Shown: positions 30,854 to 55,727 of the stretch, piece after piece | Numbering within the stretch: position 1 is the first letter of the stretch | How the letters are laid out: the number at the start of each line of letters is the position of its first letter | Assembly: GCF_004363315.1 (NCBI RefSeq) | Contig: NZ_SNYL01000004.1 | Location: forward strand, 62,001 to 126,000 | Origin: Tepidicella xavieri | GTDB taxonomy: Bacteria > Pseudomonadota > Gammaproteobacteria > Burkholderiales > Burkholderiaceae_C | DNA: 64,000 bases | Direction of reading: 5' to 3' | The notes under the pieces: model-generated | Told to the model about the DNA's origin: nothing | The model's input: only the letters and a program-made list of their open reading frames with translations | Databases searched by the model: none | Position numbers and translations under genes: made by a program

Positions 30854-32440
30854 ATGACAGACATGATTTCCTCACCGCTGGCGACGACCGAGTCGCGGCT
30901 TCCCCAGCCCTTTGCCGAACTGGGCCTGGCCACGCCGTTGCTGCAGGCCGTGGCCGACCTGGGCTACACCCAGCCCACCCCGGTGCAAAAAGCGGCCATT
31001 CCCATGGCCATGCAGGCCGGTGATGCCGCCGATGCGTTTACCGACCTCATGGTGTCGAGCCAGACGGGCAGTGGCAAGACCGCCGCTTTCCTGCTGCCGG
31101 TTCTGCATACCTTGATCCAGCAACAGGCCGAACGCGAGGCAGCCGAGCAGGCCGATTGGGCCCGGCGGGCGGCCGAAGCGCAAGCGGCCGGGCAGCCCGC
31201 GCCAAAGCGCCCCAAGCGCAAAAACCCTTTGCTGGCCCGCCACTTCAAGCCTGCCGAGCCGGGCGCGCTGGTGTTGTGCCCCACGCGGGAACTGGCCCAG
31301 CAGGTGGCGCACGATGCCATCGACCTGGTCCGCCATTGCCGTGGCCTGCGGGTGGCCAATGTGGTCGGGGGCATGCCCTACCAGACCCAGATCGCGAGGC
31401 TGCAAAACGCCCATCTGGTCGTGGCCACGCCAGGGCGCCTGCTCGATCTGCAGCGCAGCGGACAGATTCGGCTGGAGCATGTGCAGTTCTTGGTGGTCGA
31501 TGAAGCCGACCGCATGCTGGATCTGGGTTTTGCCGATGATCTGGCCGATATCCATGCCCTGACGGCCCGGCGTCGTCAGACGATGATGTTCAGTGCCACC
31601 TTCGCGCCGCGCATCCAGGCGCTGGCGGCCCGGGTGATGCGTCAGCCCCAGAAGGTGCAAATCGACACCCCGCAGGACCGGCACGCCCACATCGAGCAGC
31701 GCCTGTACTGGTGTGACAGCCCTGAGCACAAGCGGCAGTTGCTGGACCACTGGTTGCGGGTCGATGGCATCGACCAGGCCATCGTGTTTGCGAGCACCCA
31801 GGTGGAATGCGATGCCCTGGCCGAAGATCTGCAGCAAGCCGGCTTTGCCGCCGTGGCGTTGCACGGGGCGCTGAGCCAGGGCTTGCGCAACCGCCGCCTG
31901 ATGGCCTTGCGCAATGGGCAGGTGCAGTTCCTGGTGGCCACCGATGTGGCCGCCCGTGGCATCGATGTGCCGACCATCACGCACGTGTTCAATTACGGCC
32001 TGCCGATGAAGGCCGAGGATTACACCCATCGCATCGGCCGCACGGGCCGCGCAGGCCGCCAGGGGCTGGCCGTCACCATGGCCGAATTCCGCGATCGCCG
32101 CAAGATCGGGGAAATCGAGGCCTACAGCCGGCAGCGGTTTCAGGCCCAGACGATTGCCGGGCTGGAGCCGCGCAAGCCGGTGGCTGACATCGGCCATGAG
32201 CGCCGTGACGGACGCGGACCGCGCCGTGGCCGCCACGGTGGCAACTGGGGGGAAGAGCGTCGCTATCCCGGGGAGGGCGGACAGCGCTCAGGCGGCGCTC
32301 GCCATGCCCGTGGGCCGGGTGAGGGCGCTCGGGTGGGCTTTGCCCCGCCCGCGCCTGGGGGCCGTCATCCTTCGGGCGAGAAACGGGCCCGCCACCAGGA
32401 CTCGAAGTCCTTCGCCGGCAGAGGGCGCGCCAGCAGGTAA
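30854..32440 (+). CDS. DEAD-box ATP-dependent RNA helicase
   Basis: Unwinds RNA duplexes in ribosome assembly or mRNA decay. It is 528 aa. Motifs in order: Q motif (YTQPTPVQKAAIP), I (SSQTGSGKTAAF), Ia (PTRELAQQ), GG region (VVGGMPYQTQI), Ib (TPGRLLD), II (VDEADRMLD), III (SATFAP), IV-V (VFASTQVEC, ATDVAARGIDVP), VI (HRIGRTGRAG). A 50-residue charged insertion (Glu/Ala-rich then Lys/Pro-rich) separates motifs I and Ia. The C-terminal tail is basic and RG-rich (GRGPRRGRHGGNWG), an RNA-binding extension as in RhlE. ATG 30854 was taken; 30863 is an alternative. Its last 76 bases overlap the convergent GGDEF-EAL gene. Confidence 0.93.
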   Translation: MTDMISSPLATTESRLPQPFAELGLATPLLQAVADLGYTQPTPVQKAAIPMAMQAGDAADAFTDLMVSSQTGSGKTAAFLLPVLHTLIQQQAEREAAEQADWARRAAEAQAAGQPAPKRPKRKNPLLARHFKPAEPGALVLCPTRELAQQVAHDAIDLVRHCRGLRVANVVGGMPYQTQIARLQNAHLVVATPGRLLDLQRSGQIRLEHVQFLVVDEADRMLDLGFADDLADIHALTARRRQTMMFSATFAPRIQALAARVMRQPQKVQIDTPQDRHAHIEQRLYWCDSPEHKRQLLDHWLRVDGIDQAIVFASTQVECDALAEDLQQAGFAAVALHGALSQGLRNRRLMALRNGQVQFLVATDVAARGIDVPTITHVFNYGLPMKAEDYTHRIGRTGRAGRQGLAVTMAEFRDRRKIGEIEAYSRQRFQAQTIAGLEPRKPVADIGHERRDGRGPRRGRHGGNWGEERRYPGEGGQRSGGARHARGPGEGARVGFAPPAPGGRHPSGEKRARHQDSKSFAGRGRASR

Positions 32441-35346
32441 CCCTGCATCTGATCACAGCCGCGTTGCTGCAGGAAGGCCCGCTGGGCTTCGGTTTCCACC
32501 CCTTCGGCCACCGTTTTGAGCCCCAGGCTGCGGGCCATCTGAATGATGGTCTCGACGATGCCGGCGTCTTCGGCGTCGTCAGGCAGCCCGCGGACGAAGG
32601 ACTGGTCGATTTTGAGCTTGCCGATCTGGAACCGCTTGAGGTGGTTGAGCGAGGAATAGCCGGTGCCGAAATCATCCAGCGAGAGGTGCACGCCCAGCGC
32701 GCGCAGGGCGTCCACGGTGGCGATGGCGGCTTGCGGGTCGTGCATGGCAGTGCTTTCGGTGAGTTCCAATTCGAGCCACTCGGCGGGCAGGCCCGAGTCT
32801 GCCAGGGCTTGGGCGACCCGCTGTACCAGATCGGGCTGGCGAAACTGCGCAGCCGACAGGTTGACCGCCACCACCATGGACGGCAGGCCCGCCTGACGCC
32901 ATTGCTGGAGCTGCACACAGGCCTGGCGCAATACCCACTCCCCGATCGTCACGATCTGCCCGGTGTGCTCGGCCACGGGGATGAATTCGGCCGGCGAAAT
33001 GGCGCCGAGCGTCGGGTGATTCCAGCGCAGCAGGGCCTCCACCCCGATCAGTGAGCCATTGCACAGGGAGATCTGGGGCTGGTAGTGCAAGCACATCTCA
33101 CCCCGCTCGATGGCCCGTCGCAGGGCGTTTTCCAGTTGCAGGCGGCGCATGGCCAGGGCCTGCATTTCCTGCGTGAAGAAGGCGTGGCGGTTGCGCCCTT
33201 CCTGCTTGGCGCGGTACATCGCCGTGTCCGCGCAACGGTACAGGGTCTCGAAGTCGCTGCCATCGTTGGGGTAGAGCGCGATGCCGATGGAGGGTGTGAC
33301 GGTGAGCTCCTGGGTGCCCAGGTCGTAGGGCTGGCCCAGCGTCTTGAGCAAGACTGTGGCAGCGTGGGCGGCGCCTTCGGCGCCGGTCTCTGGCAGCACG
33401 GCCACGAACTCGTCGCCACCAAGCCGCGCCACGGTGTCCTGTTCCCGCACCAGGGATCGGATGCGCCGGGCCACCTCTACGAGCAGTTGGTCGCCGACCT
33501 GGTGGCCGAGCGAGTCATTGACGTGCTTGAAATGGTCCAGATCGATGAACAACAGGCTCAGCGGCTTGTCGTATCGGCGGGCCATGCTCAGGTCGTGCTG
33601 CACGCGATCGCGCAGCAGCGTGCGGTTGGCCAGGCCGGTCAGGTTGTCGTAGTAAGCCAGATCGCGGATGCGTGCTTCCTGTTCCAGACGCCGGCTGATG
33701 TCGCTGAAGATGGCCACGTAGTGGGTGGTCTGGCCCGAGCCGTCCTGAATGCGGCTGATGGACAGCCACTCGGGATACTCTTCGCCGTTGCGGCGCCGGT
33801 TCCAGATTTCGCCTTCCCAATGCCCGGTCTGACGAATGCTGCGCCACATCGCTTCGTAGAAGGTGCGGTCGTGCCGCCCGGAAGACAGGATGCTGGGCTT
33901 TTGGCCCATGACCGCTTCTTCCGGATACCCGGTGATGGCCGTGAAGGCCGGGTTGATCTGGATGATGCGCTGCTGGGCATCGGTGATGACGAAGCCCTCG
34001 CTGCTGCCTGCGAAAAACTGCGCGGCCAGGTGGTACTGCAGCTCGGCTTGCTTGCGCGCGGTGATGTCGCGGGCCAGGGCGATGAAGCGCGCCGGGGTGG
34101 CGCTGGTGCTGTCAGCAGCGGAGGCAGCCTTGGCTGCCATGGACAACTCGAACCATTGTCGCCCCTGTGGCGTGTCGATGGGGTATTGCCGACCGCTGGA
34201 ACGGCCGTCCCGGGCCGCATCGGCCATGCTGGCGCGAATGGTTTGGAGCGCATCCAGTGGCAGGAAGTCGGCAATGTTGCGGCCCTGGATGTGCTGCGGG
34301 GCGTAGAGCGTTTGGGTGCGGTGATGGGTGTGGACGGCATGCAGCATGCCATCGGCATCGAGGTCGAACAAGACGTCGGGCACCGCGTTGAGGGTGGCTT
34401 GGAGTTCCTGCCGGGCTTCCTCGATTTCCCGGGTGCGTTGCGCGACCTGGTGTTCGAGCGCCACCTTTTGTGTGGTGCGAGCCAGCAGCAACCACACGAG
34501 CAAGGCGAGCATGGCGCTGAAAGCCATACTGAAAGCGCCCTGGATGAGCAAGGGGCCGATCTGCGCCCAGCCTGCGCGCGGCTCTACGTCCAGCAACCAT
34601 TCCCCATTGGGCACCTTCACCGATCGCCCGACGCCTTGCTTGAGCGGCTGGCCGCTGATCACATCTTCCGAGGCAGCAATCACCTGCCGCTGGCCGGTAT
34701 CGGGATGCCGGCGCCACAGTTCGTACCGGTAGCCGCGTTCGGTCAGGCTCTCCAGCCCCAGGCCCTCGAAGGCGTCGGGGAAACGGATGGTGACGAACGC
34801 GAAGCCCCAGAATTGAGGTTCCTGGCGTTGCGGATGGGGCAGAAACACCGGCAGCCGACCCACCGCGCCCAGCCCGCCCTGAACGAGGTTCAGCGGCCCG
34901 GCCAAGGTGAGGCGGCCGGTGTCGCGGGCCAGGAAGGCTTCGGGGCTTTGCACGGGGTCGGCCAGCTGGTTGAAGCCGATCGTGGCCCGGTTCGGTTCCA
35001 GTGGAATGGCGTAACGGACGATGCCGCCCGGCGCCAAGCCCAGGGAGGTGACGCCAGGGTAGAAAGGCAGCATTTCGGTGGCGAGTTGTTCGAACTGCGT
35101 GACCTCGCCCCCATTGGCCCGGACGAAGGCGGCCATCAGGTATGTGGCCGACATGAGCCGCTCCATCCGGTTTTCCAGCGCCTGGGCCACGTCGCCGGCG
35201 AGCAGCCGGGCCTCGGCGCGGTGGGCGTCTATCCGCTGCATTTCGGCCCGCCACGCAAAGCCACCCAACACCAGGCCGCTGACCAGAAAAACGGTCAGGG
35301 CCATCCACCCATGACGTCGCGCCAGGGCGCGCAGGGTTTCGGTCAT
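32365..35346 (-). CDS. CHASE-PAS-PAS-GGDEF-EAL c-di-GMP enzyme
   Basis: Membrane-bound regulator that makes and/or degrades c-di-GMP. It is 993 aa. A membrane helix at about residues 14-32, a CHASE-type periplasmic sensor (about 60-260), a second helix (about 265-288), two PAS domains (about 315-425 and 440-555), GGDEF (motif LGGDEF at about 643) and EAL (EALLRW at about 770). The GGDEF domain keeps IDLDHFKHVNDSLGHQVGD and an RxxD inhibitory site (REQD) five residues before the motif. The EAL metal ligands (NLS, ELTE, DDFGTGYSS, KID, EGVE) are all present. Both activities are therefore possible. The start ATG at 35346 follows comparison with the first membrane segment. Confidence 0.93.
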   Translation of the reverse strand: MTETLRALARRHGWMALTVFLVSGLVLGGFAWRAEMQRIDAHRAEARLLAGDVAQALENRMERLMSATYLMAAFVRANGGEVTQFEQLATEMLPFYPGVTSLGLAPGGIVRYAIPLEPNRATIGFNQLADPVQSPEAFLARDTGRLTLAGPLNLVQGGLGAVGRLPVFLPHPQRQEPQFWGFAFVTIRFPDAFEGLGLESLTERGYRYELWRRHPDTGQRQVIAASEDVISGQPLKQGVGRSVKVPNGEWLLDVEPRAGWAQIGPLLIQGAFSMAFSAMLALLVWLLLARTTQKVALEHQVAQRTREIEEARQELQATLNAVPDVLFDLDADGMLHAVHTHHRTQTLYAPQHIQGRNIADFLPLDALQTIRASMADAARDGRSSGRQYPIDTPQGRQWFELSMAAKAASAADSTSATPARFIALARDITARKQAELQYHLAAQFFAGSSEGFVITDAQQRIIQINPAFTAITGYPEEAVMGQKPSILSSGRHDRTFYEAMWRSIRQTGHWEGEIWNRRRNGEEYPEWLSISRIQDGSGQTTHYVAIFSDISRRLEQEARIRDLAYYDNLTGLANRTLLRDRVQHDLSMARRYDKPLSLLFIDLDHFKHVNDSLGHQVGDQLLVEVARRIRSLVREQDTVARLGGDEFVAVLPETGAEGAAHAATVLLKTLGQPYDLGTQELTVTPSIGIALYPNDGSDFETLYRCADTAMYRAKQEGRNRHAFFTQEMQALAMRRLQLENALRRAIERGEMCLHYQPQISLCNGSLIGVEALLRWNHPTLGAISPAEFIPVAEHTGQIVTIGEWVLRQACVQLQQWRQAGLPSMVVAVNLSAAQFRQPDLVQRVAQALADSGLPAEWLELELTESTAMHDPQAAIATVDALRALGVHLSLDDFGTGYSSLNHLKRFQIGKLKIDQSFVRGLPDDAEDAGIVETIIQMARSLGLKTVAEGVETEAQRAFLQQRGCDQMQGYLLARPLPAKDFESWWRARFSPEG

Positions 35347-35413
35347 GACCAGACCTGGCTGTCCGTCGGTTGGAGAAGGCTCGCGATCGCGGGCGATTCG
35401 GCAAAGTGGAGCA

Positions 35414-35440
35414 TGGACAACGACGCCGGATGTGTAATAT
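35414..35440 (+). promoter_or_regulatory. possible promoter of the alpha/beta hydrolase gene
   Basis: TGGACA (35414-35419) and TAATAT (35435-35440) are separated by 15 bases, shorter than the ideal 17. They lie 63 bases before the hydrolase ATG in the intergenic region shared with the divergent GGDEF-EAL gene. Confidence 0.3.
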
Positions 35441-35502
35441 GGAAAAAAACGCTGGGGCGACCGTCTGCGCGGCCCTTGCAAACAATCTTACAGGAGACGC
35501 GC

Positions 35503-36375: not shown

Positions 36376-37353
36376 TCACATCAGCAGGTGCTCGCCGGCG
36401 TTGTCCCCGCCCAGGATGACGTAATTCACCTTGCGAATGTCCATGAGCTGCCGGCCGCCCGCGTAGCTGATGGAGCTTTGCAGGTCTTCCTGCATTTCGC
36501 GCAGCGTGTCGGCCAGCTTGCCCTTGATCGGTTCGAGGATGCGCTTGCCTTCGACGTGCTTGTACTCGCCCTTGTTGAAGTCGCTGGCCGAACCGTAATA
36601 CTCTTTGTAGAGCCTGCCGTCCACTTCCACCGTCTGGCCGGGGGACTCCTCGTGGCCGGCCATCAGGGAGCCGATCATCACCATCGTGGCGCCGAAACGG
36701 ATGGATTTGGCGATATCGCCATGCTCGCGAATGCCGCCGTCGGCGATGATGGGCTTGGTGGCGACGCGGGCACACCATTTCAGGGCCGACAGCTGCCAGC
36801 CCCCGGTGCCAAACCCCGTCTTGAGCTTGGTGATGCACACCTTGCCTGGCCCAATGCCGACCTTGGTGGCGTCGGCGCCCCAGTTTTCCAGATCGATGAC
36901 CGCTTCGGGCGTGCCCACGTTGCCGGCAATGATGAAGCTGCCGGGCAGCTTCTGCTTGAGGTGCGCGATCATGCGCTGGACGCTGTCGGCGTGGCCATGC
37001 GCGATGTCGATGGTGATGTATTCGGGCATCAGCCCCTCGGCGGCCAGTCGCTCGGCAGTGGCGTAATCGGCCGCCTTCACGCCCAGCGAAATGGAGGCGA
37101 ACAGCCCTTGGTCATGCATGCGGCGCACGAAGGCCACGTTGTCCAGGTCGAAGCGGTGCATGACGTAGAAGTAGCCATGGGCGGCCAACCACTCGGCGAT
37201 CTTCTCGTCGAGCACGGTTTTCATGTTGGCTGGCACCACGGGCAGCTTGAAGCGGCGTGGGCCGAACTGCACCGAGGTGTCGCATTCCGAGCGGCTTTCC
37301 ACCCGGCACTTGCGCGGCAGCAGCAAAATGTTGTCGTAGTCGAAGATTTCCAT
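36376..37353 (-). CDS. guaC: GMP reductase, type 2
   Basis: NADPH-dependent conversion of GMP to IMP and ammonia in purine salvage. It is 325 aa. The IMPDH/GMPR barrel is complete: [15 protein letters not shown] at the N-terminus, the catalytic cysteine in [40 protein letters not shown] and [14 protein letters not shown]. It has no CBS domains, so it is not IMP dehydrogenase. Its length and EHGDIAKS wording match the GuaC2 group common in Firmicutes and some betaproteobacteria. AAGGAG lies 9 bases before the ATG at 37353; a 35-codon upstream extension is unsupported. Confidence 0.92.
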
Positions 37354-37401
37354 GATCCAGGCTCCTTGGTCGGTGAAGAGGGGGTGAGCGCTTGGCCTGA
37401 A

Positions 37402-37453
37402 TCCGGCAACAAAAAACCGGACGCAAGAAACTTGGGCCCGGTGATTGATTGTA
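37402..37453 (-). promoter_or_regulatory. guaC promoter and leader hairpin
   Basis: On the minus strand, a TACAAT -10 (37453-37448) in the context GTGTATACAATC lies about 95 bases before the guaC ATG. Downstream, TCCGG and CCGGA (37421-37417 and 37406-37402) form a hairpin with a T-rich 10-nt loop. A -35 is not evident. Confidence 0.4.
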
Positions 37454-37596
37454 TACACATTCCCACGGTGTCGGGGAACGATCCGCTCGATGGCATGGGT
37501 GCGAGAGGCTTGGGGGCTATCTACCGGGGGGTTTGCCCCTTTCAGCCTTGTTTAAAATCTGCTAAAAACCTAAAAAACATCCTTGCGAGGCGAAAT

Positions 37597-39405
37597 ATGA
37601 GCAGTTGGACGTCGTTATCTTTGAAGCAGCGGCTCATATGGACCACGGGGGCGCTGGTCGCTTTGAGTGTGCTGGCGGTTTCGACCTTGAACTTTTTCAC
37701 GGTGCGTAATGCCGCCATGCAATCCCTGACGCAAAGCACGGCGGCTCTTTCGGAGGCGCGGGTCAGTGGCATCGCCGAATGGGTGAAGACGCGATCCGAC
37801 ATCACCCAGGCCATGCTGCCGGCGACGGCGGTGGACGATCCCCTGCCGGCATTGACGCAGGCAGTCGTCAGTGGAGGGTTCGATACCACCTACATCGGTT
37901 ACGCCAACCGCACGGCCATTTTTTCCACCCCACAGAATCTGCCGCCAGATTGGGACCCGACCGGTCGCCCTTGGTACCGGCAGGCGGCGGCGGGCAATGG
38001 GGTGGTGTTGACCGAGCCGTATGTGGACGCCGGCAGCGGGCGGCTGGTCATGACCTTCGCCGTGGCCGCCCGCGAGGGAGGAGCCGTGCGGGCAGTGGCG
38101 GCCTCCGACGTGTTCATGGATGTGGTGGCCAACAGTGTGACGGCCATCGCGCCGACGCCATCGAGCTATGCCTTCGTTGTCTCCAGCGCCGGCAAAGTGC
38201 TGGTACACAAGAACCTGGAACTGGTGCTCAAGGATGTGGCCGAGATTTCCCGTGACCTCAGTGGTCCCCGGGTCCAGCAGATTGCCCAAGATGGCGGCCT
38301 GGTACCGGTGAGCATCGATGGGGTGGGGCGGCTGATCAGTGCGCGACCGATCGTTGGCACCGACTGGTGGTTGGTGATTGCCCTGCATGGAGGCGAGGCC
38401 ATGGCCGGCGTGCGCCAACTGTTGACCAGTTCGCTGGTGGCTGGGCTGCTGGTGGCGTTGGCATCGGTGCTCGTGTGCGCGGCCGTGGTGGTGCGCTCGC
38501 TGACGCGGCTGGGTCGGCTGGAAAAAGCCATGCTGGATGTGGCTTCGGGCGAAGGCGATCTCACCAAGCGACTCAATGCCGACGGCTCCGACGAACTCGC
38601 GCGCATCGCGGCGGCGTTCAATGAATTCGTGGCCAAGATCCAGGGCACGCTGCGCGTGATTCGTGAAACCAGTGACTCGGTGAACGTGGCGGCTCGTGAG
38701 ATCGCGTCAGGCAATCACGACCTGTCGGCCCGCACCGAACAGACCGCATCCAGCCTGGAAGAAACGGCCTCCACCATGGAGGAGATGATCAGCGCCGTGA
38801 CGCAGTCGGCCGACACCGCTACCGAGGCCAACCGGATTGCCGCCGCGGCGGCACAGTCCGCCGCGCGAGGCGGGGAGGTGGTTTCAGAGGTGGTGCGCAG
38901 CATGGACGACATCACCCACCGCTCACGCCGCATCAACGACATCATCGCCGTGATCGACGGCATTGCCTTCCAGACCAACATCCTCGCGCTCAATGCGGCG
39001 GTGGAGGCGGCTCGCGCGGGTGAGCAGGGCCGCGGTTTTGCCGTGGTGGCCAGCGAAGTGCGCACCCTGGCGCAGCGCTCTGGTGAGGCTGCCAAGGAGA
39101 TCAAGGGCCTGATCGAAGGCTCGGTGCAGGCGGTGGAAAACGGCTCGGTGCTGGTGAACCAGACGGGCGAAGTGATGCAGGCCATCGTCACCGACGTGCA
39201 GAAGGTGGCCCATTTGATGAATCAGGTGGCGCTGGCCGCCAATGAACAGCGACAGGGCATTTCGCAAATTGGCGATGCCGTGACCAATCTGGATCAGATG
39301 ACGCAGCAGAATGCGGCGCTGGTCGAAGAAAGTGCCGCGGCCGCCACGGCGCTGAGCGAGCAGGCCGACAGTCTGGCGGCCACGGTGGCGCAGTTCAAGA
39401 TCTGA
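37597..39405 (+). CDS. methyl-accepting chemotaxis protein with dCache sensor
   Basis: Inner-membrane chemoreceptor. It is 602 aa. Helix 1 at about residues 13-34, a periplasmic dCache_1 domain (about 40-270), helix 2 (276-299), HAMP (300-350) and a signalling domain whose tip reads [20 protein letters not shown]. The dCache pocket contains GRPWYRQA and, further on, EPYVDAGSG, resembling the R-x-W-Y and Asp ligand residues of amino-acid-sensing dCache domains; the position usually occupied by a Tyr is Trp (PPDWDP). It has no C-terminal NWETF-type CheR tether (it ends AQFKI). GAGG precedes the ATG at 37597. Confidence 0.93.
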
Positions 39406-39431: not shown

Positions 39432-41849
39432 ATGCAACACGAAGTCACCGCCCTGATTCGAGACCTCGGCATGAATGCCGGTCTGCTGGCCATGCTGGCG
39501 GTGGCGTATGGCGTGGCAACACGCGGCACCTTGCACAAGCGGCGCGAGGTGCGACGGGCCCGCAGCCGTTGGCTGGTATGGCTGGGGGGGCTTCTGTTTG
39601 GAGGTGTCGGTATCCTGGCCATGATGGTGCCAGTGACCGTGGCCCCAGGTGTGATCATGGATGCCCGCAACGTAGTGGCAGCCCTGGCCGGGGCTTACCT
39701 GCCGCTGGCTCCGGCAGCGCTGGCGGCGGTCATCATGGCCATCTATCGGGAGTCTTTGGGAGGCATAGGGGTGTATCCGGCCCTGTTGGCGATCGGACTC
39801 AATCTGCTTGTTGGCGTGGTGATGCGGCGTATACGTCCCGACTTCGATGAGCGTCTCGGACGCTTTGGCGGCTTGTGGGGCTGGTTGCTCGTCTTGGGGC
39901 TTGGTTCGGCGTTGGTCACGCAGATGGCCACCTGGACCTTGCCGAGTGATTTGGGCGCTCAGGTCTGGCGTCAGACCGCCGTGCCGGTGACGGTCATGTC
40001 GCTCATGGCCATTCTTTGCGTGGGCTATCTCCTCGACAACAGCCTGTATCTGAGGGAGCGGGAAGTTCGTCTGGCACAGTCCACCGCGCGGTTGCAGCAG
40101 GCGCTGGCCGAAGCCCGGCAGGCGGCCAGTGTGTTTACCCACAGCCCGGCCACGATTTGCATCATGAAGCCACGCGGGGAGATTCTCGATGTCAACCCCG
40201 CCTACTGCCAGACCTTGGGTTACACCCGCGAAGAACTCATTGGCATGCAGTCCGACCTGCTGCGCGTAGGGGCTGAAACGCAAGGCGACAACTTTCGGCT
40301 CGTGGTGGCGCGTGCCATTCAGACCGAAGGACGCTGGCAGGGCCAGGTCCAGCGGCGTCGCAAAAATGGTGAGGTGTTCTGGTCGGATGTGACCATCGAA
40401 GGACTTCCTGACAGTGACGGCGTGGTGCGGCGCTGGGTATCGGTGGGCAAGGACTTGACTGAGAAGCGCCGAATGGAGGAAGCGGTGGCCAGAGCGGCTC
40501 ACTACGATCAGCTCACCGGGCTGCCCAACCGGCGCCAGATCACCCAACGCCTGCATGGTTGGCTGGCACAGGCTGCTGGCCGTCCCGGGTGCCTGGCGAT
40601 CTGTGTCCTGGATTTGGACGATTTCAAGGCCGTGGTCGATCAAGTGGGGGCATCGGCTTCTGACGATGTGCTCTGTGCGGTGGCCAGAGTGCTGCAGGGC
40701 GGGGCCGATGAATCGAGGCTGGTGGGTCGGCTCGGCGGGGATGAGTTCGTGGTGGTGATCCATGGCTGCGCAGAACCAGTGGAGGCTTTGCAGCAACTCG
40801 AAGCCTTGCGGGTCTGCGTTCGCGGCCCCCATGCCGTGGCTGACCGGATGCTGACCTTGGCATGCAGCGGCGGCGTGACCTTCTACCCGGCGGACGGCGG
40901 AGATGCCGACATGCTGCTGCGCCACGCCCATTTGGCCATGTTGCTGGCCAAAGAACAGGGCAAGAACCGCCTGTGTGTGCACGATGTTCACCGTGAGGCC
41001 CAGGTGCAAAGCCAGCGAGACCATCTGGCCCGCATTGAACAGGCGATCGATCAGGGCGAGATGGTGTTGTACTTCCAGCCCAAGGTGCGTCTGGCTGACG
41101 GCGAAGTGATCGGGGTGGAGTCCCTGATTCGCTGGCGGCATCCTGAACGGGGTGTGCTGGCGCCGGGTGTTTTTCTGGATGCAGTGCAGGGCACACCGCT
41201 GGCCACGCGGCTGGACGGCTGGGTGCTGCATGAAGCGTTGCGGATTGGCAGCCGCTGGATGGCCTCCGGAACCGTGTTGCCCGTGAGCGTGAACCTGCAT
41301 GTCTCCACCCTCGTGCGGCCCGAGTTCCTGCAAGACGTGCAGCAACTGTTGGCCGCCTATCCGGCATTGCCAAGGGGGTACCTGGAAATCGAACTGCTCG
41401 AATCCGAAACGTTGCATGACCTTTCTCTGGTGTCTTACGTGATCGAGGAACTGGCCCGCTTAGGGGTGCCATGCTCCATCGACGACTTCGGTACGGGGTA
41501 TTCCTCTCTGGCTTACCTGCAGCGTCTGCCGGCGCAGATCATCAAGATCGACCAGTCTTTCGTGCGGGATATGCTCGTCAATGAGCGTGACCGCACCTTG
41601 GTGCGCGGCGTCATCAGCCTTGGGAAGGCCTTTGGCTGCACCGTGGTGGCCGAAGGCGTGGAAACCGACGAGCATGCCGCCGCCTTGCACGATATGGGTT
41701 GCGACATCCTGCAGGGATACGGGATCGCCCGACCCATGCCGGCAGACGACATACTGAGTTGGGTGGCCGGTTGGGAAATGCCGGAGTCCTTCGTCGGCCA
41801 TGCCATCCGGGATGCCTTTGACGACTTGGTGCGCCGAGTGCGCGACTGA
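39432..41849 (+). CDS. LytS-type 5TM sensor-PAS-GGDEF-EAL protein
   Basis: Membrane c-di-GMP regulator. It is 805 aa. The N-terminus has a 5TM-5TMR_LYT sensor (helices about residues 13-30, 48-68, 80-105, 115-131, 148-170 and 185-202) with its signature GVIMDARNVVAALAGAYLPL and YRESLGGIGVYPALLA. PAS spans about 230-345. The GGDEF motif is intact at 435, but the substrate block reads LDLDDFKAVVDQVGASASDD: the Asn of FKxxND is Val, His of GH is Ala, Gly of GD is Ser, and there is no RxxD site. The EAL domain (ESL at 563) keeps Asn, Glu, DD, Lys and EGVE ligands. Net phosphodiesterase activity is likely. Confidence 0.92.
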   Translation: MQHEVTALIRDLGMNAGLLAMLAVAYGVATRGTLHKRREVRRARSRWLVWLGGLLFGGVGILAMMVPVTVAPGVIMDARNVVAALAGAYLPLAPAALAAVIMAIYRESLGGIGVYPALLAIGLNLLVGVVMRRIRPDFDERLGRFGGLWGWLLVLGLGSALVTQMATWTLPSDLGAQVWRQTAVPVTVMSLMAILCVGYLLDNSLYLREREVRLAQSTARLQQALAEARQAASVFTHSPATICIMKPRGEILDVNPAYCQTLGYTREELIGMQSDLLRVGAETQGDNFRLVVARAIQTEGRWQGQVQRRRKNGEVFWSDVTIEGLPDSDGVVRRWVSVGKDLTEKRRMEEAVARAAHYDQLTGLPNRRQITQRLHGWLAQAAGRPGCLAICVLDLDDFKAVVDQVGASASDDVLCAVARVLQGGADESRLVGRLGGDEFVVVIHGCAEPVEALQQLEALRVCVRGPHAVADRMLTLACSGGVTFYPADGGDADMLLRHAHLAMLLAKEQGKNRLCVHDVHREAQVQSQRDHLARIEQAIDQGEMVLYFQPKVRLADGEVIGVESLIRWRHPERGVLAPGVFLDAVQGTPLATRLDGWVLHEALRIGSRWMASGTVLPVSVNLHVSTLVRPEFLQDVQQLLAAYPALPRGYLEIELLESETLHDLSLVSYVIEELARLGVPCSIDDFGTGYSSLAYLQRLPAQIIKIDQSFVRDMLVNERDRTLVRGVISLGKAFGCTVVAEGVETDEHAAALHDMGCDILQGYGIARPMPADDILSWVAGWEMPESFVGHAIRDAFDDLVRRVRD

Positions 41850-42007: not shown

Positions 42008-42868
42008 ATGAACCCATCCACCCTGATCGGGATGGTGGCCAGCGTCTTGCTGCTGGTCGTCGTCATGATTTTCGCGGCCGAAGACCCGCTGCTGTTCATC
42101 GACCTGCCTGGCCTGGCGATCGTTCTCGTCGGTACCATGGCGGCGACTTTCATGAGTTATCCGCTCAAGGAAGTGTTGCGTGTTTTCAAGCTGATCAAGA
42201 CGGTCATCCGCAACGAACGGCTCTATACCCAGAAAGACATCGAGGAACTGGTCGATGTTTCTCGCCTGTGGATACGGGAAGATCCGGTGGCGGTGGAAAA
42301 GGCCCTGCAGCGCGTGACCAATCCTTTCCTACGTACCGGGGTGCAACTCGTCATCGAGCGCACGCCGGAGGAAGACATCCTCGACCTGCTGCAGTGGCGC
42401 ATCTCGCGCATGAAGGCCAAGGAAGCGGCCGAGGCGCAGCTGTTTCGCGTCATGGCCAGCTATGCGCCCGCCTTCGGGATGATCGGCACGCTCGTCGGGC
42501 TGGTCAACATGATGGACATACTCGGCACGGGCGACATGGTGGTCATTGGCAGGCACCTGGCCGTGGCGCTGATGACGACCTTCTACGGCATTTTGCTGGC
42601 CAATCTGGTGTTCAAGCCGGTGGCCGTCAAGCTGGAGCGCCGCACCGAGCAGCGTGTGGTCCTCATGAACATGGTGATGCAGGGCATTGCCATGATGACG
42701 GCCAAGCGCAGCCCCTCGCTGATGCGCGAGACGCTCAAGTCCTTCGTCGCGCATTATGAGGACGAGATTTTCGACGGCCCGCAGGACAATGGTCGTCGCC
42801 CTGGGCTGCTGCGTCGTGGTCCCGCCACCCCCAAGCCTACCCCTGGCGCAGGGGCAAACCGGTCATGA
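42008..42868 (+). CDS. motA: flagellar motor stator protein MotA (PomA-like)
   Basis: Stator subunit of the flagellar motor that, with MotB, conducts ions and drives rotation. It is 286 aa with four membrane helices (about residues 5-22, 32-52, 148-170 and 180-202). The large cytoplasmic loop between helix 2 and 3 carries the charged residues that contact FliG (DIEELVDVSRLWIRED, ISRMKAKEAAEAQ). The conserved proline-containing YAPAFGMIGTLVGLVNMM starts helix 3. The branch looks closer to PomA/MotA than to ExbB. It overlaps motB by 4 bases (ATGA). Confidence 0.92.
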   Translation: MNPSTLIGMVASVLLLVVVMIFAAEDPLLFIDLPGLAIVLVGTMAATFMSYPLKEVLRVFKLIKTVIRNERLYTQKDIEELVDVSRLWIREDPVAVEKALQRVTNPFLRTGVQLVIERTPEEDILDLLQWRISRMKAKEAAEAQLFRVMASYAPAFGMIGTLVGLVNMMDILGTGDMVVIGRHLAVALMTTFYGILLANLVFKPVAVKLERRTEQRVVLMNMVMQGIAMMTAKRSPSLMRETLKSFVAHYEDEIFDGPQDNGRRPGLLRRGPATPKPTPGAGANRS

Positions 42869-43725
42869 GCGGGGGCACGTTGCTTGAAAAAATGTGGGGC
42901 GAGATGCAGGCATCGTCCCAGTCCACGTCGGCTGCCACCTCCGCCAGCGACTCCGGACCGAACCGGGCCATCAGTGCCCTGCGCAGCGGGCGATTCGAGC
43001 GCTGGCACACCGATCCCGTGCCACCGCAGGAAGATGAGTCTTGGCTTGTCACTTACCTGGATGTGGTCACCCTGCTGCTCGCGATGATGGTGGTGATGCT
43101 GGCTTTTTCCGAGCCCATCAGCGAGTCGTTCCGTGGTGAGAAACGGGAAAGTGCGCTCGACCGGCAGTCGCCCATCGTTCAATCGGCGGCCGATGCCGGC
43201 ACCAGCATCGTGCCCCCCATTCCCTTGCCCCATCCGGCCACCGCGCCCGCCCGCGTGGAGGGCGAGCCGCAGGACATGAGGCCCGCGCCGCCGCGGCCCG
43301 CCGTCGAAGTGGGTGATCTGGGCCAGGGGATCGAGGTCACCACTGGCCAGGGCGTGGTGCGCTTTCGCATCAGCAGTGAAGTGCTGTTTGCGTCTGGCGA
43401 CGCCTCGCTAACGCCCGAAGGGCAGGCCGTAATCGATCGCCTGCTGCCTGCCTTCAACCAGGCGCCCGATCACACCATCGTGGTCGAGGGCCATTCCGAC
43501 AACGTGCCCATCAACACCCCACGTTTCCCGTCGAACTGGGAACTGTCTGCCTCCCGCGCCGGTGCAGTGGTGCGGCATCTGGAGGCGCGCGGCATCAACC
43601 CCACCCGGCTGCGTGCTTCCGGCTTGGCCGATACCCGCCCCGTGGCCGACAACGCCACGCCCGAGGGGCGAAGCCAAAACCGACGCGTGGAAATCGTGAT
43701 GGAGGCGCCAGACCCCCAGCGGTGA
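42865..43725 (+). CDS. motB: flagellar motor stator protein MotB
   Basis: Ion-channel and peptidoglycan-anchoring half of the stator. It is 286 aa. A single membrane helix (about residues 62-82) carries the ion-binding aspartate in TYLDVVTLLLA (Asp66). The C-terminal OmpA-like domain (about 165-283) has VEGHSDNVPINTPRFPSNWE, with the peptidoglycan-contact Asp and Arg in SASRAGAVVRHLEARGI. Unusual: the cytoplasmic part before the helix is about 60 residues and Ser/Ala-rich, longer than the usual 20-30. No other flagellar gene is in the window. Confidence 0.92.
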   Translation: MSGGTLLEKMWGEMQASSQSTSAATSASDSGPNRAISALRSGRFERWHTDPVPPQEDESWLVTYLDVVTLLLAMMVVMLAFSEPISESFRGEKRESALDRQSPIVQSAADAGTSIVPPIPLPHPATAPARVEGEPQDMRPAPPRPAVEVGDLGQGIEVTTGQGVVRFRISSEVLFASGDASLTPEGQAVIDRLLPAFNQAPDHTIVVEGHSDNVPINTPRFPSNWELSASRAGAVVRHLEARGINPTRLRASGLADTRPVADNATPEGRSQNRRVEIVMEAPDPQR

Positions 43726-51224: not shown

Positions 51225-52181
51225 ATGTTCGTCGCAGCCCCCCTGCCGTCCAACTCGTCTGGTCAAGTCGAGACCGTGGCTTTGGCGTGGGTGTCTCGGC
51301 TGACCAGCGCCCGTGACCGACGCGAACTCGCTCAACTGCTGCTGCAAGGCGTGCGCTCTTGGCCGGGAGTGGAGCGCGCCGAGCTGGACGAACAGGTGGA
51401 GGTGGCGGCCGACGCGGTGTTGCCGGATCCCGAAGGCTGCCAGTGTTGGGAGATGCGGTCCGAGTATGGTGAACAGTCGCTGCTGCGGGTGTGGGCGGCC
51501 GCCGATGTGCCCGACACCATGGACTTCATTGGCCATCTGGTGCGGGCCTACCAGCATGTGCTGCGCCTGATCGACGGCGCCGAGCGCGACCCGATGACCG
51601 GATTGTTCAACCGCAAGTCTTTCGACGAAACCTTCTGGCGCTTGAGCACCCATTGCCTGCAAACCACCAGACCGATTGTGCTGGATGGTCAAGCGGTGGC
51701 TCAGCCGGAGCGCCGCCACGAGGTGCCGCCCTCGGGTTACTGGCTCGGGGTGCTGGATGTGGATCATTTCAAGCGTGTCAACGATGAGCACGGGCACCTC
51801 ATTGGGGATGAGGTGCTGATCCTGTTGGCCCGACTGATGCGGCAGGTGTTTCGCCGGCAGGACCGCTTCTACCGTTTTGGCGGCGAGGAGTTCGTGGTAC
51901 TCCTGCCATCGACCGATGCCACCGTCGCCGAATCCCTGTTTCAGCGCTTGCGCCAGGCGGTCGAGGGGCACGTGTTTCCCCAGGTCGGACGGATCACCGT
52001 CAGCCTGGGCTACACCCAGATTCGCCCCAACGATACCCCATCGGCCGCGTTCGACCGCGCCGATCGGGCCGTTTACCTGGCCAAAAAGAGCGGGCGTAAC
52101 CGGGTGGTCTGCCACGACACGGAGCCCTCTCTCTCTGCGGCATCAGTCCTGCATCAAAGCGGCGGCGTGGAATTGTTTTGA
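51225..52181 (+). CDS. diguanylate cyclase (GGEEF), cytoplasmic
   Basis: Makes c-di-GMP from two GTP. It is 318 aa with no membrane segment. The first 115 residues are an uncharacterised alpha-rich sensor (SARDRRELAQLLLQGVRSWP). The GGDEF domain starts at about residue 118 with DPMTGLFNRKSFDE. It keeps LDVDHFKRVNDEHGHLIGDE and RFGGEEF (219-223). The inhibitory RxxD site is present (R210 to D213). Unusual: about 30 residues (141-171, including VLDGQAVAQPERRHEV) are inserted between the first helix and the substrate strand. The promoter region is the AT-rich stretch 51147-51224. Confidence 0.92.
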   Translation: MFVAAPLPSNSSGQVETVALAWVSRLTSARDRRELAQLLLQGVRSWPGVERAELDEQVEVAADAVLPDPEGCQCWEMRSEYGEQSLLRVWAAADVPDTMDFIGHLVRAYQHVLRLIDGAERDPMTGLFNRKSFDETFWRLSTHCLQTTRPIVLDGQAVAQPERRHEVPPSGYWLGVLDVDHFKRVNDEHGHLIGDEVLILLARLMRQVFRRQDRFYRFGGEEFVVLLPSTDATVAESLFQRLRQAVEGHVFPQVGRITVSLGYTQIRPNDTPSAAFDRADRAVYLAKKSGRNRVVCHDTEPSLSAASVLHQSGGVELF

Positions 52182-54149: not shown

Positions 54150-55727
54150 TCAGCGCAGCTTGAACCGGCTGACCAACTGGGCCAGTTCCTGGGCCTGATC
54201 CTTCAACGAAGCGGCCGCGGCCGAGGCTTCTTCCACCAGCGCGGCGTTTTGTTGCGTGACGCCGTCCATGAGGGCCACGGCGCTGTTGATCTGCGTCAGC
54301 CCTTCGGCCTGCTCGCTGCTGGAGGTGGAAATTTCACGCATGAGCTGGGTCACCCGCTCGATGCTTTCGACGATCTCTTTCATCGTGGCGCCGGCCTGAG
54401 CCACCTGCTCGGTGCCGTCGGCGACCTTGGAGACGGAGTCATCGATCAGGCCCTTGATTTCCCGCGCGGCTTGCGAGCTGCGCTGCGCCAGGCTGCGCAC
54501 TTCGGCGGCCACCACGGCAAACCCCCGGCCTTGCTCGCCGGCGCGCGCGGCCTCCACCGCCGCGTTGAGCGCGAGGATGTTGGTCTGGAAGGCGATGCCG
54601 TCGATCACGCCGATGATGTCCACGATCTTGCGCGATGAGGTGTTGATGTTGTCCATCGTGTGGACGACCTGCGAGACGACCTCCCCGCCGCGGGCGGCCA
54701 CGCTGGAGGCGGTCTCGGCCATGTCATTGGCCAGCCGGGCGTTGTCGGCGTTTTGCCGGACGGTGCTGTTGAGTTCTTCCGTGGCCGAAGCGGTCTGCTC
54801 CAGCGAACTGGCCTGCTGCTCGGTGCGCTGCGAGAGGTCCAGCGTGCCGCTGGCCACCTGGGCTGCCGCGCTGGCGATGGCGTCCGCCCCCTGGCTGACC
54901 TGGGTGATCACATTGCGCAGGTGGCCCTGCATCTGGCGCATCTGACGCAGCAGATGGGCGATTTCGTCTTGCCCGCCGTGGGCCGTGATTTCTTCCGTCA
55001 AGTCGCCGTTGGCGATGGCCGTGGCGGTGCGGTCGGCCTGCTCGAAGCCGGTGGACAGGCGGCGCAGGGTCAGCAGCATCAGCACCGTCACCGGGATGGC
55101 GCCGAGTATCACGATGGCGGCAAACAAAATCTGGCTGGCCTGGTAGCGTTGGTCTGCCAGACGGGTTTCTCGGTCTGCCATTTCGGCCTGGTAATTGCGC
55201 AAGGCCGAAATCGACTTCTCGAACGCGTCACCTTCCATGCGGCCGGCCACGAGGAAGAAATTCATGGTGGCAGGAGAAAAATCCCCGGCGCGCAGGGCGT
55301 CCAGCGCCTGATTGCGCTTGGCCTGCCAAGCCCGGCGCTTGGCCTGCATGTCATCCACCAAGGCCTGTTCCTCGGCCGACATCGGGCGGTTCAGCACGAT
55401 CTGGAAGGCCTCATCGTTGGCCGCGACGGTGGCTTGCAGCGCGTTGAAATGCAGGTCGATGCTGTGGTCGTGAATCTGATACAGCGGCCCGTCCGGGTCG
55501 TGCTGGAAAGCCAGCAGGATTTGCAGGCGGTTTTCGTAGAAGTTGCGGTTGATGACCGCCAGCGCTTCGACCACCTGCATGCGCTCGTTATGCACATGGT
55601 GCAGGGCATCGCGCGCCGTGCGCATGCCGAAAATGCCTGCGGCCATGGCCAGCAGAAACACCAGCCAGTAAACGACCACGACGGTCCAGACGCGATGGGT
55701 CAGGCGAAAGCGATCGAGCAGGCGCAT
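54150..55727 (-). CDS. methyl-accepting chemotaxis protein (4HB/TarH sensor)
   Basis: Inner-membrane chemoreceptor. It is 525 aa. Helix 1 at about residues 12-35, a four-helix-bundle periplasmic sensor of about 150 residues (ERMQVVEALAVINRNFYENR), helix 2 (about 196-217), HAMP (about 218-270) and the signalling domain with tip [20 protein letters not shown]. The C-terminal VSRFKLR has no CheR tether. A possible sigma-28 promoter lies at 55784-55810. The sensor is not distinctive enough to predict a ligand. It is convergent with the nucleotide-sugar gene. Confidence 0.93.
   Translation of the reverse strand: MRLLDRFRLTHRVWTVVVVYWLVFLLAMAAGIFGMRTARDALHHVHNERMQVVEALAVINRNFYENRLQILLAFQHDPDGPLYQIHDHSIDLHFNALQATVAANDEAFQIVLNRPMSAEEQALVDDMQAKRRAWQAKRNQALDALRAGDFSPATMNFFLVAGRMEGDAFEKSISALRNYQAEMADRETRLADQRYQASQILFAAIVILGAIPVTVLMLLTLRRLSTGFEQADRTATAIANGDLTEEITAHGGQDEIAHLLRQMRQMQGHLRNVITQVSQGADAIASAAAQVASGTLDLSQRTEQQASSLEQTASATEELNSTVRQNADNARLANDMAETASSVAARGGEVVSQVVHTMDNINTSSRKIVDIIGVIDGIAFQTNILALNAAVEAARAGEQGRGFAVVAAEVRSLAQRSSQAAREIKGLIDDSVSKVADGTEQVAQAGATMKEIVESIERVTQLMREISTSSSEQAEGLTQINSAVALMDGVTQQNAALVEEASAAAASLKDQAQELAQLVSRFKLR

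Follow-up and report, generated by a model that had tools for sequence, protein, structure and literature searches.

The protein encoded at 39432-41849 on the forward strand of the analysed window (the whole stretch of 64,000 nucleotides of Tepidicella xavieri DNA) is best read as an inner-membrane c-di-GMP phosphodiesterase whose GGDEF domain would no longer act as a cyclase and would serve as a folded relay or dimerisation module; we put the probability of this at roughly 0.77. The sequence-only reading had also taken the protein for a likely phosphodiesterase with a degenerate GGDEF part, and three observations point the same way: the checked EAL positions are complete and the GGDEF signature damaged in all ten members of the clade described below, and the GGDEF domain has diverged in excess of the EAL domain. 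The reading frame is open throughout, and the gene and its domains are as follows.

39432..41849, + strand: 5TMR_LYT-PAS-GGDEF-EAL protein, 805 aa (open reading frame and Pfam)
39432..40055, + strand: membrane sensor domain, residues 1-208, Pfam match at 44-202 (Pfam and hydropathy)
40128..40484, + strand: PAS domain, residues 233-351 (Pfam)
40497..40970, + strand: GGDEF domain, residues 356-513, motif intact, N335V/H340A/G343S, without I-site (Pfam and residues)
41031..41735, + strand: EAL domain, residues 534-768, ESL motif, checked catalytic residues complete (Pfam and residues)

All four Pfam domains (5TM-5TMR_LYT, PAS, GGDEF and EAL) score above their own curated cut-offs, with 221.2 bits against 31.3 for the EAL profile and 50.7 bits against 24.6 for PF07694 (5TMR_LYT). 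The PAS domain is an addition to the sequence-only reading, which had missed it. The AlphaFold model has a mean pLDDT of 75.3 and a pTM of 0.47; it is poor up to about residue 230, where the block means fall below 65 and the alignment holds no homologues, and mostly good beyond, with a GGDEF domain that is complete and mostly confident.

The GGDEF motif itself is intact (G435-F439), and three site positions are changed, namely N335 to V402, H340 to A407 and G343 to S410 in PleD numbering. The I-site positions are D426 and R429, so that the inhibitory RxxD is absent; all of this had been read correctly from the letters. The PleD numbers were placed by motif spacing and the usual labels, and the match to PleD (query 5-162 to chain 289-448), when read without gaps, falls within one residue of them. 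D327 (D394), D329, F331, K332, D336, D344 (D411), R366 and K442 are retained, and for D344, D327, K332, R366 and K442 this had not been pointed out before. Thus one guanine ligand is lost (N335, now V402) and the other is kept (D344, D411): PMC7288161 describes N335 and D344 as the guanine contacts, H340 and G343 not being so described there, and calls D327, N335 and D344 essential for GGDEF activity. The N335V change is real and rare within our sample, because Asn prevails in both sets that were compared. The N335 column of 120 aligned GGDEF rows, some of them redundant, contains N in 113, a gap in 3, Y in 1, I in 1 and V in 2, both V rows being the window's own domain, which is present twice; among the GGDEF domains of the same genome (33 places found, of which 30 were examined and 3 had no locus), the position is N in 28, Y in 1 and V only in the window protein. 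The cyclase activity of the GGDEF domain has most likely been lost, and perhaps GTP binding too. The protein is a clear case in which a motif scan would report a cyclase by mistake, with a perfect GGDEF motif and the guanine-binding Asn gone.

In a tree of 90 sequences, ten GGDEF-EAL sequences form one clade with support of 100/100 and a stem of 0.51. Its members are the window protein, one relative without PAS and eight full-length relatives, about 51-54% identical, that come from two other genera. Two sequences were kept out of the clade counts: L208, a second copy in genome G440 whose contig ends before the GGDEF domain (42.5% over residues 1-334), and the row L240_+_1, which is a different gene. 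L206 and L207 can be aligned with the window protein over the full length, at 54% and 51% identity, respectively, while L214 is 51% identical over GGDEF-EAL, with neither PAS nor 5TMR shown by Pfam and an N-terminus that matched weakly. In the tree, the window protein pairs with L206 on weak support (98/64). The GGDEF signature is damaged in all ten members, which keep 13-17 of its 20 positions; at least 18 are kept by 69 of the 80 sequences outside the clade and by 24 of the 26 other rows in the wider group around it. The lesions differ among the lineages. Besides N335V/H340A/G343S in the window protein, L206 carries D336L/H340A/G343C and AGDEF, the seven g241 copies have LSSR for LPNR (LASR in L241), H340Q and G343A, with D336E in five of them, and L214 has D327N, H340R and DGDQF. 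H340 is lost in every member and RxxD in nine, L214 retaining it. Within the clade N335V is confined to the window protein; the GGDEF domains of the eight full-length relatives may still bind GTP, because N335 and D344 are both kept in them. Since both N335 and the motif are retained in some members and lost in others, the clade is a natural test series for the role of a non-cyclase GGDEF domain.

The nine full-length members fall into three lineages, between which the identity is 44-50% in the GGDEF domain and 64-71% in the EAL domain. For relatives with a near-intact signature, the mean GGDEF identity is 59.3% in the EAL 60-65% bin (27 pairs, lowest 43.6%) and 65.6% in the EAL 65-70% bin (11 pairs, lowest 55.6%); this set was picked by signature retention, its pairs are non-independent, and the minimum of the EAL 60-65% bin reaches down to the level of the clade. 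The GGDEF domain has thus diverged between the lineages beyond what the EAL domain predicts. Among the seven g241 orthologues, dN/dS (ratios of mean values, from our own script) is 0.131 for the membrane part, 0.085 for PAS, 0.153 for GGDEF and 0.127 for EAL; with a value of 0.153, the GGDEF domain is under purifying selection in g241 and is no decaying junk.

In c-di-GMP receptors of the LapD type the EAL domain is degenerate and inactive. The window protein differs in that its EAL positions are complete: all 14 checked positions are kept in it and in all ten clade members, in agreement with the earlier claim that the metal ligands are present, and DDFGTGYSS is intact in nine members. When mapped by spacing, E175, R179, N233, D295, D296 and E352 of RocR, named as metal and substrate positions in PMC7911125, correspond to E563, R567, N621, D684, D685 and E741 of the window protein. 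Outside the 14, Q161 and E265 of RocR correspond to Q549 and E654 and are invariant in a three-protein alignment. As a point on the other side, the EAL domain departs from the consensus clade-wide at two positions, E586 and G595. ESL stands in place of EAL, as had been seen before, its Glu being E563. The motif is ESL in 4, ECL in 4 and EAL in 1 of the nine full-length clade members, and EAL in 64, EVL in 7, ELL in 5, ETL in 2, ESL in 1 and ECL in 1 of the 80 other sequences. Since PA0285 of Pseudomonas aeruginosa is an active phosphodiesterase with ESL (PMC10874727), ESL is no defect and its middle letter no warning sign. PA0285 is also like the window protein in being a membrane-anchored PAS-GGDEF-EAL protein with an intact GGDEF motif and no I-site; by its description in the same source, it differs in having two PAS domains, two transmembrane portions, no 5TMR_LYT and a GGDEF domain that binds GTP.

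The LytS-type 5TM sensor is present as proposed (5TM-5TMR_LYT at 44-202 by Pfam). A simple hydropathy scan, judged by eye, gave about seven hydrophobic segments in this '5TM' domain, which fits the '5TMR' domain of PMC11109136, where it is given seven helices, six in an S-component fold and one more at the N-terminus. The same source names BtsS and YpdA as pyruvate sensors and describes an NxR motif between helices 1 and 2; at its likely position are D77-A-R79 in the window protein, DAK in L206 and DAR in L207. The pairing had been called uncommon, and this did not hold. Across 399 order-level genomes, 5TMR_LYT matches were found in 27 (the window's own included) at 30 places, two of them below the cut-off; GGDEF and EAL were found by Pfam at ten other places (L163-L172), making 11 of the 30 with the window protein, and PMC11109136 (2024) calls such fusions frequent, with PAS, GGDEF and EAL often joined to 5TMR. 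The remaining 19 places gave no EAL motif by simple pattern, two of the frames (L176 and L183) being end-clipped. The ten proteins have the same 5TMR_LYT-(PAS)-GGDEF-EAL set as the window protein, with PAS in seven (L163-L168 and L171), and N335, H340 and G343 are kept together in 7/10. Nine of them (all but L171) are in the tree, and since these nine are scattered over several parts of it and none joins the clade, the architecture has probably originated on more than one occasion.

Among the matches listed in 60 related genomes, including the same-genus G001 and G002, none outside the window's own genome starts before residue 164, and the best span about 205 to 790 at 41-44% identity. When residues 1-233 were searched against 399 family genomes, matches at E<1e-30 were found solely in G440, G711 and the window's genome and any match at E<=0.001 in 29, with none in G001 and G002. 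In the genus of G711, 7 of 47 genomes have a copy 84-100% identical to the 233-residue query from L207, and 35 give any match to it. Among the 5000 matches listed in a plasmid search, no place covers 80% of the window protein. The gene has a GC content of 63.1% against 64.5% in the window and a GC3 of 0.748 against 0.79-0.87 in four neighbours, which is compatible with acquisition and does not prove it. The protein clade itself is new to us, and no literature on it was noticed in searches that could not go by sequence; the protein kind is well known.

In the window, the phosphodiesterase gene and a chemoreceptor (MCP) gene sit between a guaC-like gene and motAB.

36376-37458, - strand: guaC-like gene, presumably for GMP reductase (named from its sequence), abutting the region
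37597..39405, + strand: dCache_1-HAMP-MCPsignal chemoreceptor, 602 aa, ending 26 bp before the phosphodiesterase gene
42008..42868, + strand: MotA-like flagellar stator protein, 158 bp downstream of the phosphodiesterase gene
42865..43725, + strand: MotB-like protein (MotB_plug, OmpA; Pfam)

A gain at the guaC-motA site, or repeated loss, is likely, because guaC and motA are neighbours in G001, G002 and G440 with neither gene between them, and G580, of another genus (L280), has an 85% identical MCP at the site with the phosphodiesterase gene absent. A conserved chemoreceptor-phosphodiesterase cassette was considered and set aside. An MCP does lie just upstream of the gene in the window, L206 and L214; in L206 it is a C-terminus of 48 aa (64.6% identical, in a widely conserved part of the MCP) at the contig end, and in L214 it is of the 4HB type with a different ligand domain. 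But neither the window's MCP nor its MotA found a match in the seven g241 loci. Ten loci around close relatives of the MCP were also inspected: in no case does the phosphodiesterase gene sit next to the MCP, and the nine besides G580 give no match to the phosphodiesterase protein at all. The MCP type is common on its own, since its sensor half has some match in 158 of the 399 family genomes. The chemoreceptor-phosphodiesterase link is only suggestive. A consensus scan gave 7 terminator-like sites where 3.4 were expected, all of them outside the MCP-phosphodiesterase gap and the gap preceding motA, and no promoter-like site where 0.7 was expected. Another chemoreceptor, of 525 aa (TarH/4HB_MCP_1, HAMP, MCPsignal), is encoded at 54150-55727 on the reverse strand.

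For the proposed phosphodiesterase, the enzyme activities, the direction of signalling, the ligand and the motility role are all what we infer. Signals received by the 5TMR_LYT and PAS domains would travel along the long helix and through the GGDEF domain before reaching the EAL domain, where c-di-GMP would be hydrolysed; the GGDEF domain would have lost c-di-GMP synthesis and persisted as a folded module for relay or dimerisation. A drop in c-di-GMP would promote swimming, which fits the neighbouring genes (the chemoreceptor upstream, motAB downstream), though this motility link is weak. In Azospirillum, ChsA is linked to a neighbouring chemoreceptor gene. It is a c-di-GMP phosphodiesterase tied to chemotaxis (PMC5845226) and is likened to the window protein here by description. 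Precedent for the relay role comes from PA0285, in which changing GGDEF to GAAAF lowered hydrolysis even though GTP had no specific effect (PMC10874727), and from RbdA, whose phosphodiesterase is controlled by the linked cyclase domain (PMC11372557).

That the GGDEF domain is a working diguanylate cyclase, making the protein bifunctional, is very hard to credit, even with the motif, the metal ligands and D344 intact. The RxxD inhibitory site is not present in all cyclases, and its loss alone need not stop the cyclase. However, PMC7288161 reports that N335 is essential, changes affect H340 and G343 too, and PA0285, with its GGDEF motif intact, shows no cyclase activity in vitro (PMC10874727). 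It is unlikely, though worth weighing, that GTP binding persists in the GGDEF domain, by way of D344 and the phosphate and metal ligands, and that the domain regulates the EAL domain allosterically as a GTP sensor, like CC3396/PdeA, RmcA and RbdA. PA0575 (5m3c), which we take to be RmcA, and RbdA (PA0861, 5xgb/5xgd) have the same GGDEF-EAL tandem as the window protein and differ in their N-terminal sensors. The best PDB sequence match is 5m3c, in which PA0575 has GTP bound, and it is also among the best by fold: ranked by E-value, 5xgb leads and 5m3c_B is fifth, with DosP entries both above and below the latter, and the GGDEF-EAL pair of the model gives a TM score of 0.84 by target length against 5m3c_B and 0.57 against 5m3c_A. 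PMC10874727 describes GTP sensing by RmcA and RbdA, whose phosphodiesterase is activated in this way, and PMC8846402 describes GTP activation of FimX, which has a degenerate GGDEF domain. The retention of D327, K332, D344, R366, K442 and the full motif, and the purifying selection in g241, would suit such a sensor. Yet in the window protein Val has replaced N335, which supplies one of the two side chains that bind guanine, two further positions of the surrounding loop are altered, and the lesions vary from lineage to lineage, as under relaxed substrate constraint. CC3396 of Caulobacter also joins a degenerate GGDEF domain to an active EAL domain (PMC7288161), but its GGDEF motif is itself divergent and it binds GTP, whereas the window protein keeps the motif and has an altered guanine site. 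A long shot is that the guanine pocket, with N335V but with D344 and the phosphate ligands retained, has been re-purposed for a different nucleotide, in a chemoreceptor-phosphodiesterase-motAB circuit setting c-di-GMP at the flagellar stator. The phosphodiesterase with a non-cyclase relay remains our preferred reading, and apart from its motif and its clade it would be one more among many GGDEF-EAL phosphodiesterases, an ordinary type of bacterial signalling protein.

Other GGDEF domains were also observed nearby. At 32365-35481 on the reverse strand, a second protein of 1038 aa contains CHASE, PAS, GGDEF and EAL domains with an intact GGDEF signature, and at 51225-52181 on the forward strand a 318-aa open reading frame has a GGDEF match that begins at profile position 37, so the front of this domain looks missing or diverged. 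The 33 GGDEF places in the 2.79 Mb of the window's own genome look dense for its size.
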